From NCBI GenBank assembly GCA_017551865.1, contig JAFZKB010000012.1:1-64000 (forward strand): a DNA stretch of 64,000 bases. The letters are read 5' to 3'. Source of the DNA: Clostridiales bacterium (GTDB lineage: Bacteria; Bacillota; Clostridia; Saccharofermentanales; Saccharofermentanaceae). The position numbers were made by a program, and so were the translations under genes. The notes below the pieces were generated by a model that did no database searches, had not been told where the DNA came from, and worked only from the letters and a program-made list of their open reading frames with translations. This document shows positions 7,355 to 46,885 of this stretch, piece by piece; the stretch's first letter is position 1; every line of letters begins with the position of its first letter.

Positions 7355-8080
7355 TCAAAAATTCCCTTTCGTCGCCTCATAAAGCCCGATACTTGTGGCG
7401 ATCGGGAGATTTAAGCTGTCGATATTATCCGTGTGTTCGATCCGGACAGGATGCCCGACTTTCGCAAAAGAAGCAGGAAGACCCGTTGCTTCATTTCCCA
7501 TGATCAGGGAAAAGGGCTTCTCGATCTTCGTCTCGTGAAGAAGTGACGACCCGTCGAGCATAAAGGGATAAAAATGTCGCTTGCCGGTTCCGTCCGATGC
7601 TTCGTACTCCTCCCAGGAATCGTAGTATTTGAAGTTTACGCGGGAAAGCGCCCCCATCGACGCACGGATCACCTTCGGGTCGAAAAAGTCGACGCCCGGA
7701 CGGATGATCGCGATATTCTTCACGCCGAATCCTGCGCAGGAACGGATGATCGTGCCGGCATTTCCGGAGTTTCCCGGATTGACGAGGACTACGTGGGATC
7801 CGGTCTTATCCAGATCACAGGAGTACTTTTTGATCATGGCGATCACGAAACAGTTTTCTTTTTGCGAGAGGATCGAAAAGACCTTGTCATTGACCTCGCA
7901 GGGGATCCCTCTTTCCCGGCAGATCCGTTCGATCTTTTCCTTCGTTTCGGATTCGTAAAAAGCACTGTGCAGGTATACATGCGTGACTTTATCCGGGCGG
8001 ATATTCAGGTACTCCAAGCTGACCGTTGCCCCGAGGCAGTAGGTCATCAGGTCTTCTTTTTTATATCTTTTAATAGCCAT
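7355..8080 (-). CDS. SpoU/TrmH-family RNA 2'-O-methyltransferase
   Basis: This 241-aa protein has the three SPOUT motifs in order: NPGNSGNAG at residues 101-109 (motif 1), IMGNEATGLP at 193-202 (motif 2) and NLPIATSIGLYE at 224-235 (motif 3). These build the trefoil-knot SAM site and the methyl-accepting ribose pocket. Residues 1-95 form the substrate-binding N-terminal domain of rRNA-type enzymes. It should methylate a ribose 2'-OH on rRNA or tRNA; the exact nucleotide cannot be told from sequence. The start follows a GGGGAGAG ribosome site. It is 15 bp from the DsrE-like gene upstream, probably co-transcribed. Confidence 0.9.
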   Translation of the reverse strand: MAIKRYKKEDLMTYCLGATVSLEYLNIRPDKVTHVYLHSAFYESETKEKIERICRERGIPCEVNDKVFSILSQKENCFVIAMIKKYSCDLDKTGSHVVLVNPGNSGNAGTIIRSCAGFGVKNIAIIRPGVDFFDPKVIRASMGALSRVNFKYYDSWEEYEASDGTGKRHFYPFMLDGSSLLHETKIEKPFSLIMGNEATGLPASFAKVGHPVRIEHTDNIDSLNLPIATSIGLYEATKGNF

Positions 8081-35270: not shown

Positions 35271-36071
35271 ATGGATAAATATGTACAAGAATTACTGGAA
35301 AGAAAAGCAGTTCTCGTGAAAGGAATCTCCTCTGTCAAGAAAACACTTATCAATTCTCCCCAAGGTTCCTTAAGGATAAGCAGCTGTCGCGGGAGAACAT
35401 GCTATTATCACGTAATTGAAGGCGGTGATCCGCATGGTCGTTATATCCCCGTCGAGAATTCTGATCTTGTCACCGATCTCGCCAAGAAAGGTTATGCAAA
35501 GAAGGTCTTCAGCGAGGCGGAATGTGAATTGAAGGCGGTTGAAAGACTCCTTCAGACCATTGAAAAACATGATGCAGAATCCGTCTATTCGAAACTGAGT
35601 CCTGCTCGAAAAGAACTGGTCATGCCCATTCTCCGCGATGAACAGGAGCGGATCCGTTATTGGAGCAGCCAGCCATTCAATGCTTCGACCGACTTTCCCG
35701 AAGAAAAGATCTACGAGACCCGTCGCGGCGAAATGGTCCGTTCTAAATCGGAAGTCATGATCGCCGACATGTATAACGACCTTGGGATCCCCTACCGATA
35801 CGAGTGTGAAGTCAAACTGAAAAACGGCATCGTGAAATATCCTGACTTCACACTGTACCACGCTTCGCGCAGGACCGTATTCTACCATGAACATCTCGGT
35901 CGGCTCGATAAAGAGGACTACCGCGAACGGAATATGAAGAAATTCCGTCTGTACGAAGCAAGTGGTATCTTCATCGGCAAAAATCTCCTGGTCACTTGGG
36001 AATCAGAGAAGTATCCATTTAACATCCAGTCTTTCCGGGAACAGATCAAAGAGCTTTACGGCCTGACTTGA
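35271..36071 (+). CDS. Putative PD-(D/E)XK-superfamily nuclease
   Basis: This 266-aa protein has a helical N-terminal part (residues 1-145) and a C-terminal region with the pattern 'RSKSEVMIADMYNDLGIPYRYECEVKL', 'KYPDFTLYH', 'FYHEHLGRLDKEDYRERNMKKFRLYEASGI'. The glutamate of SE, the PD, and E/K further on fit the core of restriction-like nucleases. I recall similar solo proteins in clostridial genomes without a known role. A GGAGG site precedes the ATG. No methyltransferase or specificity gene is nearby, so a classical restriction system is unlikely. Confidence 0.55.
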   Translation: MDKYVQELLERKAVLVKGISSVKKTLINSPQGSLRISSCRGRTCYYHVIEGGDPHGRYIPVENSDLVTDLAKKGYAKKVFSEAECELKAVERLLQTIEKHDAESVYSKLSPARKELVMPILRDEQERIRYWSSQPFNASTDFPEEKIYETRRGEMVRSKSEVMIADMYNDLGIPYRYECEVKLKNGIVKYPDFTLYHASRRTVFYHEHLGRLDKEDYRERNMKKFRLYEASGIFIGKNLLVTWESEKYPFNIQSFREQIKELYGLT

Positions 36072-40327: not shown

Positions 40328-41221
40328 TTACTGCACGCCGTAGTCTTTCCAGAGAATGTTGGAAAGGTTGTTCATGATGGCCTCGGCCACGTCCGGTTTA
40401 TTCATGGAATACACGTGCACGTTCGTCACGCCGTTGGCATAAAGATCGATGATCTGGTCGGTCGCATAGGCGATGCCGGCCTGCTTCATAGACTCCGGAT
40501 CGGATCCGAAATAATCCACGATTGCCTTAAAGCGCTGCGGCATGAAAGAGCCGCTTAACTTGATCGCCTTTTCGACCTGGATCGCATTCGTGATCGGCAT
40601 GATGCCCGGAACGACCGGGACTGTGATTCCGGCTTCTCTGATCTTGTAGAGGAAGTTATAGAAAAGGTTGTTGTCGAATACCATCTGACTTACAAGGAAG
40701 TCCGCACCGGCATCTACTTTTTCCTTCAGGTGCTTGATATCTTCGTGCTGATTTACGCTCTCGGGATGGATCTCCGGATAGCATGCGCCGCCGATACAGA
40801 AATCGTAACCGCTCTCCTTGATCTCACGGATAAGTTCGACCGCGTGTCGGTAATCCCACTTGCTGCGGTCCGTATTTTCGAGTTCGGGCGTCAGGTCACC
40901 GCGAAGCGCCATGATGTTCTGAAGGCCCATGCTGTGGATCTCTTCGATCTTACTGTGGATCATGTCCTTCGAGCTACTGACGCAGGTCAGGTGCGCCATG
41001 GTCGGCACGCCGTGCTTCTCCTCGATCGTCTTGGCGATGTCGAGTGTAAAACGGCTCGTTCCGCCGCCGGCGCCATATGTCACGCTCATGAAAGCAGGCT
41101 TGTTCTCCGCGATCTTTTCGGTCGTTTCCTTAACGCTCTCGAAAGAAGTTTCCTTCTTCGGCGGGAAAACTTCAAACGACAGAGACATGCTCTTTTTATT
41201 CAGAATATCGATGATCTTCAT
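40328..41221 (-). CDS. metF: 5,10-methylenetetrahydrofolate reductase
   Basis: This 297-aa protein is a typical MetF TIM-barrel flavoprotein: 'LSFEVFPPKKE' at 14-24 including the catalytic glutamate, 'SVTYGAGGGTSRFTLD' near 46, 'HLTCVSSSKD', 'NIMALRGDLT', and 'PGIMPITN' near 206. It reduces methylene-THF to methyl-THF, the methyl donor for MetH. An extended -10 promoter lies just upstream (41257-41262). Immediately upstream of that is the 53-bp-period motif array, which makes metF a candidate for control through it. Confidence 0.95.
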   Translation of the reverse strand: MKIIDILNKKSMSLSFEVFPPKKETSFESVKETTEKIAENKPAFMSVTYGAGGGTSRFTLDIAKTIEEKHGVPTMAHLTCVSSSKDMIHSKIEEIHSMGLQNIMALRGDLTPELENTDRSKWDYRHAVELIREIKESGYDFCIGGACYPEIHPESVNQHEDIKHLKEKVDAGADFLVSQMVFDNNLFYNFLYKIREAGITVPVVPGIMPITNAIQVEKAIKLSGSFMPQRFKAIVDYFGSDPESMKQAGIAYATDQIIDLYANGVTNVHVYSMNKPDVAEAIMNNLSNILWKDYGVQ

Positions 41222-41256: not shown

Positions 41257-41262
41257 ATTATA
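41257..41262 (-). promoter_or_regulatory. Extended -10 element of the metF promoter
   Basis: The minus strand reads TGATATAAT, a perfect extended -10, about 36 bp before the metF ATG. No strong -35 is seen. Confidence 0.55.
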
Positions 41263-41312
41263 TCATAGAACAAGTGCCATCTTCACAGGTTTCCACACCA
41301 GGAACCATTTCT

Positions 41313-41577
41313 TTTGTATAAGGATGAAGAAACAACATTTCTTATACAAACAAAATCGAGATCTTTTTGTATAAGACAATTAAAAATGTCCATCTTATAA
41401 CAAAAATCGGCATACCCATTGTTATAAGAGCAGCATTATCGCCATTCTTATAACACATTGGGCTCGAATTATTTGTATAAGATTCTTTCTGTAGCCATTC
41501 TTATAACAAAATGTACTTGGATTGTTGTAATAAGATTCTTCTTTTGCGCAGTTTTATAACAAACTGGAAATTCCATC
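41313..41577. repeat. 53-bp-period array of ten CTTATA(A)CAAA motifs in alternating orientation
   Basis: Left arms (reading TTTGTATAAG or a variant) start at 41313, 41366, 41419, 41472 and 41525. Right arms (CTTATAACAAA or a variant) start at 41341, 41394, 41447, 41500 and 41553. Both series have an exact 53-bp period. Each left/right pair encloses exactly 18 variable bases; about 14 variable bases separate pairs. The enclosed and separating sequences are largely unrelated, so only the motif and the spacing are kept. The array fills the gap between the ABC-F stop (41581) and the metF promoter. No known element matches. Confidence 0.95.
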
Positions 41578-41580
41578 GCT

Positions 41581-43140
41581 TCACAGTTCCACGACCTTCG
41601 TTGCCATCTTCTCCCGGAATCGCACATCGTGCTCCACGATCAGCATCGTCGGCTGATACTCCGTGATGAGCTTTTCGAGCTGAATGCGCGAAAAGACGTC
41701 AACATAGTTCAGCGGTTCGTCCCAGATATACAGGTGCGCCGGCGTCAGCAGGCTCGTCGCGATCAGGACTTTCTTCTTCTGTCCCTCGGAAAAATCCTCG
41801 ATGTTCTTTTCAAACTGCACCTGCTCGAGCGCGAGTTGCCTTAGCACCGCGAGGAAGAGGCTGTAGTCCACCCCGTTTTCAAACGCATGCGTCCGAAGGT
41901 CGCCGTGAAGGTGCGAGGTATCCTGGTTAATGTAGGAGATCTTGAGGTGCGGCGCGGTAAGAAGCGTGCCTCCGATCGAAAAGATCTGTTCCTCATCTTC
42001 TCTGCTCTCTCCCGTTTCAGTTTCTCCGCTCCGATAGCCTGCATCACGGAGGATCGCCTTGATGAGGCTCGTTTTCCCGCAACCGTTTTTCCCCTGCAGG
42101 AAAACCCTCTCGCCATTTCGGATCTCGAAGGTAAGCCCCGTGAATACCGGTCTTTCCGCATCTTTATACTGAAACGACAGATTCCTCGTCTCGACGAGTC
42201 TGTCCTTATAATGCGTCATCGGAGAAAGCCGGAGATCTCGGATCTGTTCGACGTCATTGAGAAGCCCTTCTTTTTCCGCGATCTGTTTTCCCATACGCTG
42301 CTCGAAGACCTTCACACGCGCTTCCATTTTCTTCGTCTTCGAACTAATATACGTGCGCGCGTTTTTCGTTCTGTCATGCTCCTTGATGGGATCATATCCG
42401 ATCTTCGTATTCTCACCCTTCGTCGCCCAGCCCTGGCTCTGCTGCATCGCGCCCTTCAGTCGTCCGATCTCCTTCAAGTGCTTCTCATTTTCCGCCCGGG
42501 CGAATGCATCCGCGCGCTCCTTATTGTCCCACCAGGAGCTGAAATTTCCGCTCTGCACATCGATCGAAGTTTTTTGAATGACAAGCACATGATCGACACA
42601 GGCATCGAGAAGATCTCTGTCGTGCGACACGAGAATGAATCCCTTCTTTTTCGCAAGATAGGATTTCACGAGCTCCCGAGCCTCCTGATCGAGGTGGTTC
42701 GTCGGCTCGTCGATGAGAAGAAAATCATTCTCCCCGGCGAAAAGAACCGCCAGCATGACTTTCGTTTTCTCGCCGAAGCTCAGCGTCCGAAGCGGCCGGT
42801 AAAGAAGCTCCGCGTCCACAGAAAGATCTGCGATCTCACACATGACGCGCCAGTTCTCCACGCCCGGTTTCCATTGTTCCATCAGTTCATCCGCCGTCCG
42901 GCCGAGATCCTCGGCATCGATCCTGTACGGGAAATAGTCGCACCGTACATCGCAGCTGATGGATCCGCTATATTCATATTTTCCTAAAAGGAGATTCAGA
43001 AATGTCGTCTTTCCTTTTCCGTTTCTCCCGATAAACCCCAGTTTCCAGGAAGTGTCGAGCGTAAACGAAACGTGTTCGAAGATCGGGTCGAAGCTGCTTT
43101 CGTAGGAGAAAGACAGATCATTTACTTTCAATTGTGCCAT
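41581..43140 (-). CDS. ABC-F ATPase, Lsa-like (probable ribosomal antibiotic-protection protein)
   Basis: This 519-aa protein has two ABC domains and no membrane segments. Domain 1 has Walker A GRNGKGKTT at about 38-46, signature LSFGEK near 120 and Walker B 'FLLIDEPTNHLD'. Domain 2 has GKNGCGKTS near 343, signature FSEGQKKK near 452 and 'WDEPLNYVD'. The inter-domain linker (about 205-290) is long and charged, as in antibiotic-resistance ABC-F proteins. 'LDTSWKLGFIGRNGKGKTTFLNLL' and the linker resemble the Lsa group, which confers lincosamide, streptogramin A or pleuromutilin resistance. The leader peptide and terminator upstream support drug-induced expression. The precise drug range cannot be read from sequence. 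Confidence 0.82.
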   Translation of the reverse strand: MAQLKVNDLSFSYESSFDPIFEHVSFTLDTSWKLGFIGRNGKGKTTFLNLLLGKYEYSGSISCDVRCDYFPYRIDAEDLGRTADELMEQWKPGVENWRVMCEIADLSVDAELLYRPLRTLSFGEKTKVMLAVLFAGENDFLLIDEPTNHLDQEARELVKSYLAKKKGFILVSHDRDLLDACVDHVLVIQKTSIDVQSGNFSSWWDNKERADAFARAENEKHLKEIGRLKGAMQQSQGWATKGENTKIGYDPIKEHDRTKNARTYISSKTKKMEARVKVFEQRMGKQIAEKEGLLNDVEQIRDLRLSPMTHYKDRLVETRNLSFQYKDAERPVFTGLTFEIRNGERVFLQGKNGCGKTSLIKAILRDAGYRSGETETGESREDEEQIFSIGGTLLTAPHLKISYINQDTSHLHGDLRTHAFENGVDYSLFLAVLRQLALEQVQFEKNIEDFSEGQKKKVLIATSLLTPAHLYIWDEPLNYVDVFSRIQLEKLITEYQPTMLIVEHDVRFREKMATKVVEL

Positions 43141-46030: not shown

Positions 46031-46885
46031 TCAGCCTTTCTTTCGGATCACGACTTCTCCGCTGCAGGGCATGACCTCATCGCCTCGGATGATCTCGCCG
46101 ACTTCATCACAGACGATCTTTCCGGATCTCGGATTCTTCACAGAATTGATCCGCCCGGTGATCTCGGCTTCAACGTCGGAATATTCGAAAGACAAGTCGC
46201 ACTCTTCCATCGTGCAGTTGATCAGTTTCAGATTCTTACAGTAGCAAAGCGGCTGGGTCCCGATGATGCGGCAGTTTTTAAGCGTCAGGCCGTCGGAATA
46301 CCATCCGAGATACTCGCCTTTGATCGTGCAGTTTTTGATCGTCAGGTCCTTGCAGTGCCAGAATGCATCCTTCGTATCGAAGTCGCAGTTTTTCATATAT
46401 CCGCCTTCGACGTATTGAAAAGAATACTTCCCTTTCATCGTCACGTTTTCAAGATGCAGGTGACGGCTTTCGAAGAAGATATATTCTGAATTCAATGTCA
46501 CGTTTTCGAGACGGAGACCTTCGCATTTCCATCCGAATTCCGGGGAATCGATCGTGCAGTTACTGATCTTTATATCTTTGCACTCACGGATCGCTTTTAC
46601 TCCTTTGATCTCACAGTTGGAAAGTGTGCCTTCCTTTGCATACCAGATCGGCGCCCGGCATGTCTCATTCATCGTGATCCGGTCTATGGAGAACCTTGTG
46701 ACATGCCAGAATGGATACCGCAGGGAAAATGTGCAGTCCCTGACAACGATATCGCTGGATTCCTTAAGCGCGGATTCTCCGTCCTGCGGACCTTCGAAAT
46801 TGCATTCCACAACATCCATATCCACCGCGTGATAGAGCGCACGCTCTTCATCAAACGTCTTACCTCTGACCGTCTTTCTTTCCAT
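46031..46885 (-). CDS. DUF3737-like right-handed beta-helix protein
   Basis: This 284-aa protein consists of short repeats of the type 'xxxIxxCxIxG' with regular I/L, C and N positions (for example 'DIKISNCTIDS', 'DLTIKNCTIKG', 'GLTLKNCRIIG', 'NLKLINCTMEE'), which stack as a right-handed parallel beta helix. It begins MERKTVRGKTFDEERALYHA, as DUF3737 proteins do in my memory. No signal peptide, so probably cytoplasmic. The biochemical role is unknown. It ends 22 bp from the converging lipoprotein gene and has a GGAGA ribosome site. Confidence 0.75.
   Translation of the reverse strand: MERKTVRGKTFDEERALYHAVDMDVVECNFEGPQDGESALKESSDIVVRDCTFSLRYPFWHVTRFSIDRITMNETCRAPIWYAKEGTLSNCEIKGVKAIRECKDIKISNCTIDSPEFGWKCEGLRLENVTLNSEYIFFESRHLHLENVTMKGKYSFQYVEGGYMKNCDFDTKDAFWHCKDLTIKNCTIKGEYLGWYSDGLTLKNCRIIGTQPLCYCKNLKLINCTMEECDLSFEYSDVEAEITGRINSVKNPRSGKIVCDEVGEIIRGDEVMPCSGEVVIRKKG

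Follow-up and report, generated by a model that had tools for sequence, protein, structure and literature searches.

RAYT transposases each have a different repeat cluster beside them (PMC3116915), and REP elements are defined by a GTAG or CGTC tag at the repeat end (PMC3733652). Dimers of the nuclease I-Bth0305I reportedly form on a DNA target that spans nearly 60 base pairs (bp) (PMC3943268). The element described here is an array of short arms at positions 41312..41563 of a 64,000-bp stretch from a Clostridiales bacterium (assembly GCA_017551865.1, contig JAFZKB010000012.1, positions 1 to 64,000), which is referred to as the window. This array is probably one of the scattered, non-coding satellites of a repeat system tied to genes, in which the arrays are sites for a cognate nuclease, in a manner similar to REPINs and RAYTs. 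The REPIN-RAYT/BIME systems (PMC3116915, PMC2817692) provide the closest working analogy. In both cases an enzyme gene has its own repeat cluster, several types occur per genome, and satellite repeats are dispersed in intergenic DNA; the alternating orientation is also found in BIMEs. The systems differ in their enzyme, which is a Y1 transposase in one and a predicted PD-(D/E)XK-like nuclease in the other. They also differ in their repeats, which here are putative short half-sites in phased arrays with free filler and without a GTAG or CGTC tag. Searches of open-access papers gave no report of such arrays, or of this protein with repeats, and in that sense the gene-array system is apparently undescribed.

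The window array, to which no strand is assigned, consists of five units with a period of 53 bp and contains ten arms that alternate in orientation. Unit 1 (41312..41350) is TTTTGTATAAG-N18-CTTATACAAA, with two A-type arms. Unit 2 (41365..41404; TTTTGTATAAG-N18-CTTATAACAAA) and unit 4 (41471..41510; ATTTGTATAAG-N18-CTTATAACAAA) each have an A-type and a B-type arm, unit 3 (41418..41457; ATTGTTATAAG-N18-CTTATAACACA) has two B-type arms, and unit 5 (41524..41563) is GTTGTAATAAG-N18-TTTATAACAAA. The left arms start at 41312, 41365, 41418, 41471 and 41524 and the right arms at 41341, 41394, 41447, 41500 and 41553, both with a constant 53-bp step. The filler inside every arm pair is exactly 18 bp. 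Five left and five right arms with this period and enclosure had been described in an earlier note on this DNA, and that description is exact. That note was also correct that unit 3 has an extra A in both arms, that units 2, 4 and 5 are asymmetric, and that the array is not a simple tandem duplication. Its interval, 41313-41577, extends past the array proper, which stops at 41563; position 41577 is an interval edge only. The array gives the strongest 49-65-bp periodicity in the window (self-match 0.613 over 160 bp, period 53), compared to a maximum of 0.438 among 20 sequences of 64 kb simulated with a Markov model. Only one further signal in the window exceeds 0.48, a 57-bp periodic stretch at 46214-46520 (self-match 0.53). 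CRISPR arrays share the regular spacing and the non-identical filler, but the arms here are too short and alternate in orientation, as the earlier note recognised. Its description of the spacers as unique applies to the window copy but not to most arrays of the class, in which fillers are common to copies or units.

The genome that contains the window (G000, 2.73 Mb, from an assembly that is 94% complete) has 23 TATAAG-N14..22-CTTATA sites in approximately 12 arrays, compared to one site for the reversed control. Every fully assembled array in this genome has five units of 52-53 bp. Most copies form one family, approximately 79-98% alike pairwise, with unit-specific fillers. The window array and L007 are diverged relatives with unchanged geometry. 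The sister arrays adjoin unrelated genes. As dispersed intergenic units in alternating orientation, these arrays share a trait of REP and BIME elements. Four contigs of this genome terminate within an array, which is expected if near-identical copies break the assembly; the genomes used here are mostly draft assemblies. A short sequence, AGTGCTTTT, was rejected as an element end, with 0.54 occurrences per kb near arrays and about the same frequency at metF control loci (34 in 77 kb). It is far more common in the genus than composition predicts, shows no tie to arrays, and occurs in the window at 7958, 9936, 36122, 36663, 38796 and 40142.

The search of related genomes that the earlier note proposed recovers the same layout across the genus, with other arm motifs and beside genes of a nuclease-like family. 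Two arrays with different motifs share a single site between speE and a gene for a 266-amino-acid (aa) protein. This protein is matched in 23/23 genus genomes, mostly in several copies each. At the speE locus the gene and the array are kept in six genomes while the arm motif differs (TTGATATAAG in G020, GTTCTATAAG in G018 and G013, TTTGTATAAG in G021, GTTGCATAAG in G009 and CTGATATAAA in G002). A noncoding array with a 49-65-bp period and a self-match of at least 0.5 is present at 28 of 45 nuclease-family loci and at 1 of 44 control loci, where the nuclease loci are homology hits that are not independent and the controls are gene loci from the same searches. The sole positive control locus (L063, in G013) has a scattered array whose CCACGCC/GGCGTGG arms match those of L176, an array that is gene-linked in the same genome. 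Several loci below the threshold show inverted arms when judged by eye. The array is 5' of some nuclease genes and 3' of others, with the 3' position found in many loci. At one locus in G012 (L136, 2318-2625), six units with GATAAGATC/GATCTTATC arms lie immediately upstream of a nuclease copy, with an arm spacing of 31/22 and a period of 53 bp.

Most nuclease gene groups have an arm motif of their own. The scattered arrays in G020, G018 and G013 bear the motif of the speE-locus array of their own genome. Outer arms with the same layout are TTGATATAAG, TTGCATAAG and GTGGCATAAG in G020, GTTCTATAAG/GTGCTATAAG in G013 and G018, and TTGCATAAG and TGGGATAAG in G019. One 19-unit array in G020 (L039, 3016-4022) crosses three arm types (TTGATATAAG, GTGGCATAAG and TTGCATAAG) with the 53-bp register unbroken. 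Protein similarity is correlated with arm similarity (Mantel r 0.47, 0/5000 permutations), and with the speE clade cut to one representative the correlation is lower (r 0.20, 25/3000 permutations). This is support, not proof, for binding of the linked arms by the protein, because the permutations take no account of relatedness and a gene is inherited together with its array.

Outside the genus, the four-arm pattern is absent from 397 other genomes sampled across the phylum and present in 3 of 33 Jeotgalicoccus-family genomes, with arms such as GGTGATAAG and GTCTATAAG, an N18 filler and a 51-bp period. The named records with the pattern are Clostridiales metagenome-assembled genomes, two of which are of ruminant source. 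A phage origin was rejected, since the four-arm pattern had a single chance match among 2.9 million viral contigs. Chance-like matches in Halorubrum (L047, a GC-rich 26-bp repeat) and in a viral sequence (L048) were set aside.

The linked protein is predicted to have a PD-(D/E)XK/EDxHD-like nuclease domain. Residues R157, K159, E161, D192, F193, E207, H208, G210 and K224 are invariant in 25 members. Of the E ... PD ... (D/E)xK signature, E161, PD192F and E207 (followed by H) are invariant, but the ExK position reads EHL, EHF or EHM. No Pfam or NCBIfam family matches the protein above cut-off. PADLOC matches the window copy to the C-terminal domain of PDC-S68 (E 4e-29) and also returns HEAT_CxxC_PDDEXK, and the PHROG match is a Holliday-junction resolvase (9e-5). 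The AlphaFold model (pLDDT 91.5, pTM 0.63) consists of an N-terminal helical pair and beta-hairpin and a C-terminal nuclease fold. Foldseek searches with the model gave nothing below E 0.001, and sequence searches of solved structures gave coiled-coil matches only (E 0.26 or worse). The best structural alignment to a nuclease is with the catalytic domain of I-Bth0305I, at a middling score (VIA Z 8.3, 92 residues aligned, rmsd 3.1); Bax1 and Vsr are also matched with middling Z scores. The protein combines a predicted core nuclease fold with profile likeness to known nucleases. Its likeness to the EDxHD homing endonuclease I-Bth0305I and to Vsr-like nucleases is a match of folds, and the target of I-Bth0305I is on the scale of one array unit. 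Unlike EDxHD homing endonucleases, the family has the N-terminal helical pair and beta-hairpin, is multicopy and is array-linked, and no intron or intein was seen. PDC-S68 has a similar C-terminal nuclease domain, but its models are approximately 1200 aa long, in contrast to a stand-alone protein of 266 aa with arrays. The recombinase target suggested by the earlier note is partly borne out; the linked partner is nuclease-like and is not a recombinase. Two unannotated faecal phage scaffolds (L203 and L204; MT837260.1 and MT839528.1) contain near full-length relatives of the family with 28-31% identity.

Four family members were found in G000. Two have other arrays beside them (CCCATG and GCCGTAAA; L168 and L170 on contigs C22 and C35), and the same arrays are present at their G021 orthologues. 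One has irregular GGCCGTAAA arms. The fourth is the 266-aa window copy (35271..36071, plus strand), which has no array beside it. Its clade is sister to that of the ATAAG-linked genes at the speE locus (62-64% to L123 and L125), and the speE-locus nuclease of G021 is adjoined by the window's own motif, TTTGTATAAG. The window copy is a candidate, though unproven, partner of the window array.

The main rival explanation shares most of the evidence above. It sees the array as an element of control or a decoy: a defence-type nuclease would be bound to its own array and to scattered ones, which would titrate or autoregulate it, and the arrays would spread by ordinary recombination instead of through the nuclease. 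The resemblance of the C-terminal domain to PDC-S68, a candidate defence protein, is consistent with such a role, and an array that holds a nuclease would account for conserved geometry with free filler. The 3'-side arrays speak against a simple promoter operator, and the scattered copies in G000 are many for an operator. On balance we consider this rival unlikely, although it is the most serious of those weighed.

The spacing of the arms bears on whether the arrays act as DNA or as RNA. The gaps between consecutive arms are mostly close to 26 and 27 bp, or approximately 2.5 helical turns. Array periods fall into two ranges, 50-55 and 61-64 bp; three of the longer-period arrays have one gap that is approximately 10 bp larger (28/36, 37/26 and 35/29). 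The period of L175 is 53 by fold; the value of 59 is a short-motif artefact. An AAA/TTT tract is found in the middle of the N18 filler, on both strands, in 30/30 units of G013 and G018, 23/25 of Jeotgalicoccus, 20/33 of G020 and 33/45 of G000. In the covariation check proposed in the earlier note, arm positions 2 and 3 of G000 carry matching letters within a unit 8 times of 45, compared to 20.5 expected, and 0/1000 permutations are as low. G013 and G018 have the same tendency to fewer matches, whereas in G020 and Jeotgalicoccus the letters match above chance. In the latter genomes, units of one arm type are grouped in blocks, an arrangement that would yield such matching without pairing, and the test cannot separate the two. 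The arrays point to helically phased sites on double-stranded DNA rather than RNA hairpins, because the arms do not covary in G000, the A/T tract lies on either strand, and the periods are helical. This supports, as a DNA-level class, the nucleoprotein assembly site listed in the earlier note.

The five-hairpin RNA from the same list, in which a transcribed array would show 18-nucleotide loops between paired arms and perhaps serve the nuclease as a guide or as a structural RNA, is improbable. Consistent with it, the arms are near-complementary, terminator-like hairpins follow several G000 copies, and arm types switch together between the blocks of the mosaic array L039. Against it, arm matching in G000 is below chance, so that pairing is not kept up, and the central tract is of A or T on either strand. 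In addition, the loops of many arrays are repeated and are not unique, and the array periods differ by a helical turn. An Rfam scan at the window array found no family at gathering score, and the window holds no tRNA to which the array could be linked.

The window array lies between the stop codon of an ABC-F ATPase gene (41581..43140; 18 bp from the array) and the start of metF (40328..41221), both on the minus strand. The metF -10 element TATAAT is at 41257..41262 on the same strand, and only in this genome is an array found upstream of the metF promoter. The metF/ABC-F gene order is found in 15 of 20 relatives, where the array is absent, and the aligned gap between the two genes is 45-203 bp in these 15 relatives compared to approximately 360 bp here. 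No ATAAG array is present at metF in any of the 20 other genus genomes with a recovered orthologous metF. Judged from these alignments, the lineage of this genome gained the metF copy on its own, and the copy is not a conserved operator, because the array is absent in relatives, the gap is shorter in them and TATAAT is kept. The metF operator in the earlier note was dropped on these grounds, and the sister arrays at unrelated genes are also against it. The edges of the window array have imperfect, weak direct repeats (p 0.02), as does L041 (p 0.008), while the other arrays tested were negative. The repeats at the window array are a hint of target duplication, which together with terminal inverted repeats would mark an IS-derived MITE.

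Little weight is given to the possibility that the array is an operator or a nucleoid or partition site for an unrelated DNA-binding protein, such as a Fic-wHTH regulator or a ParB-like protein, with incidental nuclease linkage. Helically phased sites on double-stranded DNA suit many proteins, and Fic_N genes of the same group bear a similar two-unit ATAAG-N17-CTTAT layout over the promoter. The Fic link was rejected: array-bearing G019 and two Jeotgalicoccus genomes that likewise have arrays (G188 and G189) gave no Fic domain when tested, and the Fic spacing is N17 compared to N18 in the arrays. The nuclease linkage is, moreover, strong and motif-specific. The Fic_N-Fic layout has a period of approximately 51 bp and occurs at L073 (3640-3760), L076, L077, L086 and L087; in G025 a repeat of this type is present on both sides of a Fic gene. 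A REP/BIME-class element moved by a RAYT (Y1) transposase is very improbable and was rejected: the units are alternating, palindromic, intergenic and multicopy as in BIMEs (PMC2817692), and distinct clusters lie beside distinct enzyme genes as REPINs lie beside RAYTs (PMC3116915), but Y1_Tnp (PF01797) is present in 4/23 genus genomes and was not found in array-bearing G018, G019 and G020, the G000 copy has no array nearby, and the window arms TTTGTATAAG/TTGTTATAAG lack a GTAG or CGTC tag.

The proposed explanation, in which the array is a satellite, starts from the paralogues of approximately 266 aa in this genus, most of which lie beside their own array with its own arm motif. The arms, of 8-10 bp, alternate in orientation, with consecutive arms 26-27 bp apart in a unit of 51-55 bp. 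They are probably half-sites on double-stranded DNA, where subunits of the cognate protein, one per arm, would line the helix on both sides of the A/T tract in the centre. Other intergenic sites, such as that between ABC-F and metF, would then receive copies of arrays with the same motif. The satellites would most likely spread by DNA breaks and copying, driven by nuclease activity. The geometry, the linkage of gene and array, the matching of motifs within genomes, the turnover of motifs at a fixed locus and the private gain at metF were observed, and from them binding of the arms by the linked protein, cleavage and mobility are inferred.

Several observations weigh against this explanation. 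None of the four family members found in G000, in its 94% complete assembly, is beside a TTTGTATAAG array. Some nuclease copies have no clear array beside them, and family matches in other genera (G025 and G120) are without arrays. The reverse is found in G019 and Jeotgalicoccus, where ATAAG arrays occur without a matching member of the nuclease family; in Jeotgalicoccus the family has no match at E 0.001. Target-site duplication was not found as a general feature of the arrays, with most copies tested negative. Part of the Mantel signal is due to speE loci that are orthologous.

In Jeotgalicoccus marinus (G189), a 51-bp GGTGATAAG array lies approximately 30 bp from a NERD-domain gene (L112; 1495-1899 and 1929-2807). 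This gene and array may represent a second such pairing, in Bacilli and with another nuclease family. NERD homologues were sought in plasmids and none were found. We tentatively propose, as a broader reading that is quite possible, a new class of bacterial repeat system. Its nuclease-like family would be diversifying, every paralogue would recognise a helically phased half-site array of its own and spread satellites from it through the genome, and specificity would turn over fast where the loci are conserved. NERD-domain nucleases may be paired with arrays in an analogous way in Jeotgalicoccus.

Should the paralogues bind the arrays linked to them, each genome would contain several natural protein-motif pairs that have diverged at known loci. 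The code that relates a compact nuclease to its 10-bp half-site could then be read and tested directly. A second class of enzyme would also join the Y1 transposases in driving or maintaining repeats that are dispersed in bacterial genomes. For a multicopy family without a Pfam or NCBIfam model, this would be the first lead on its role.
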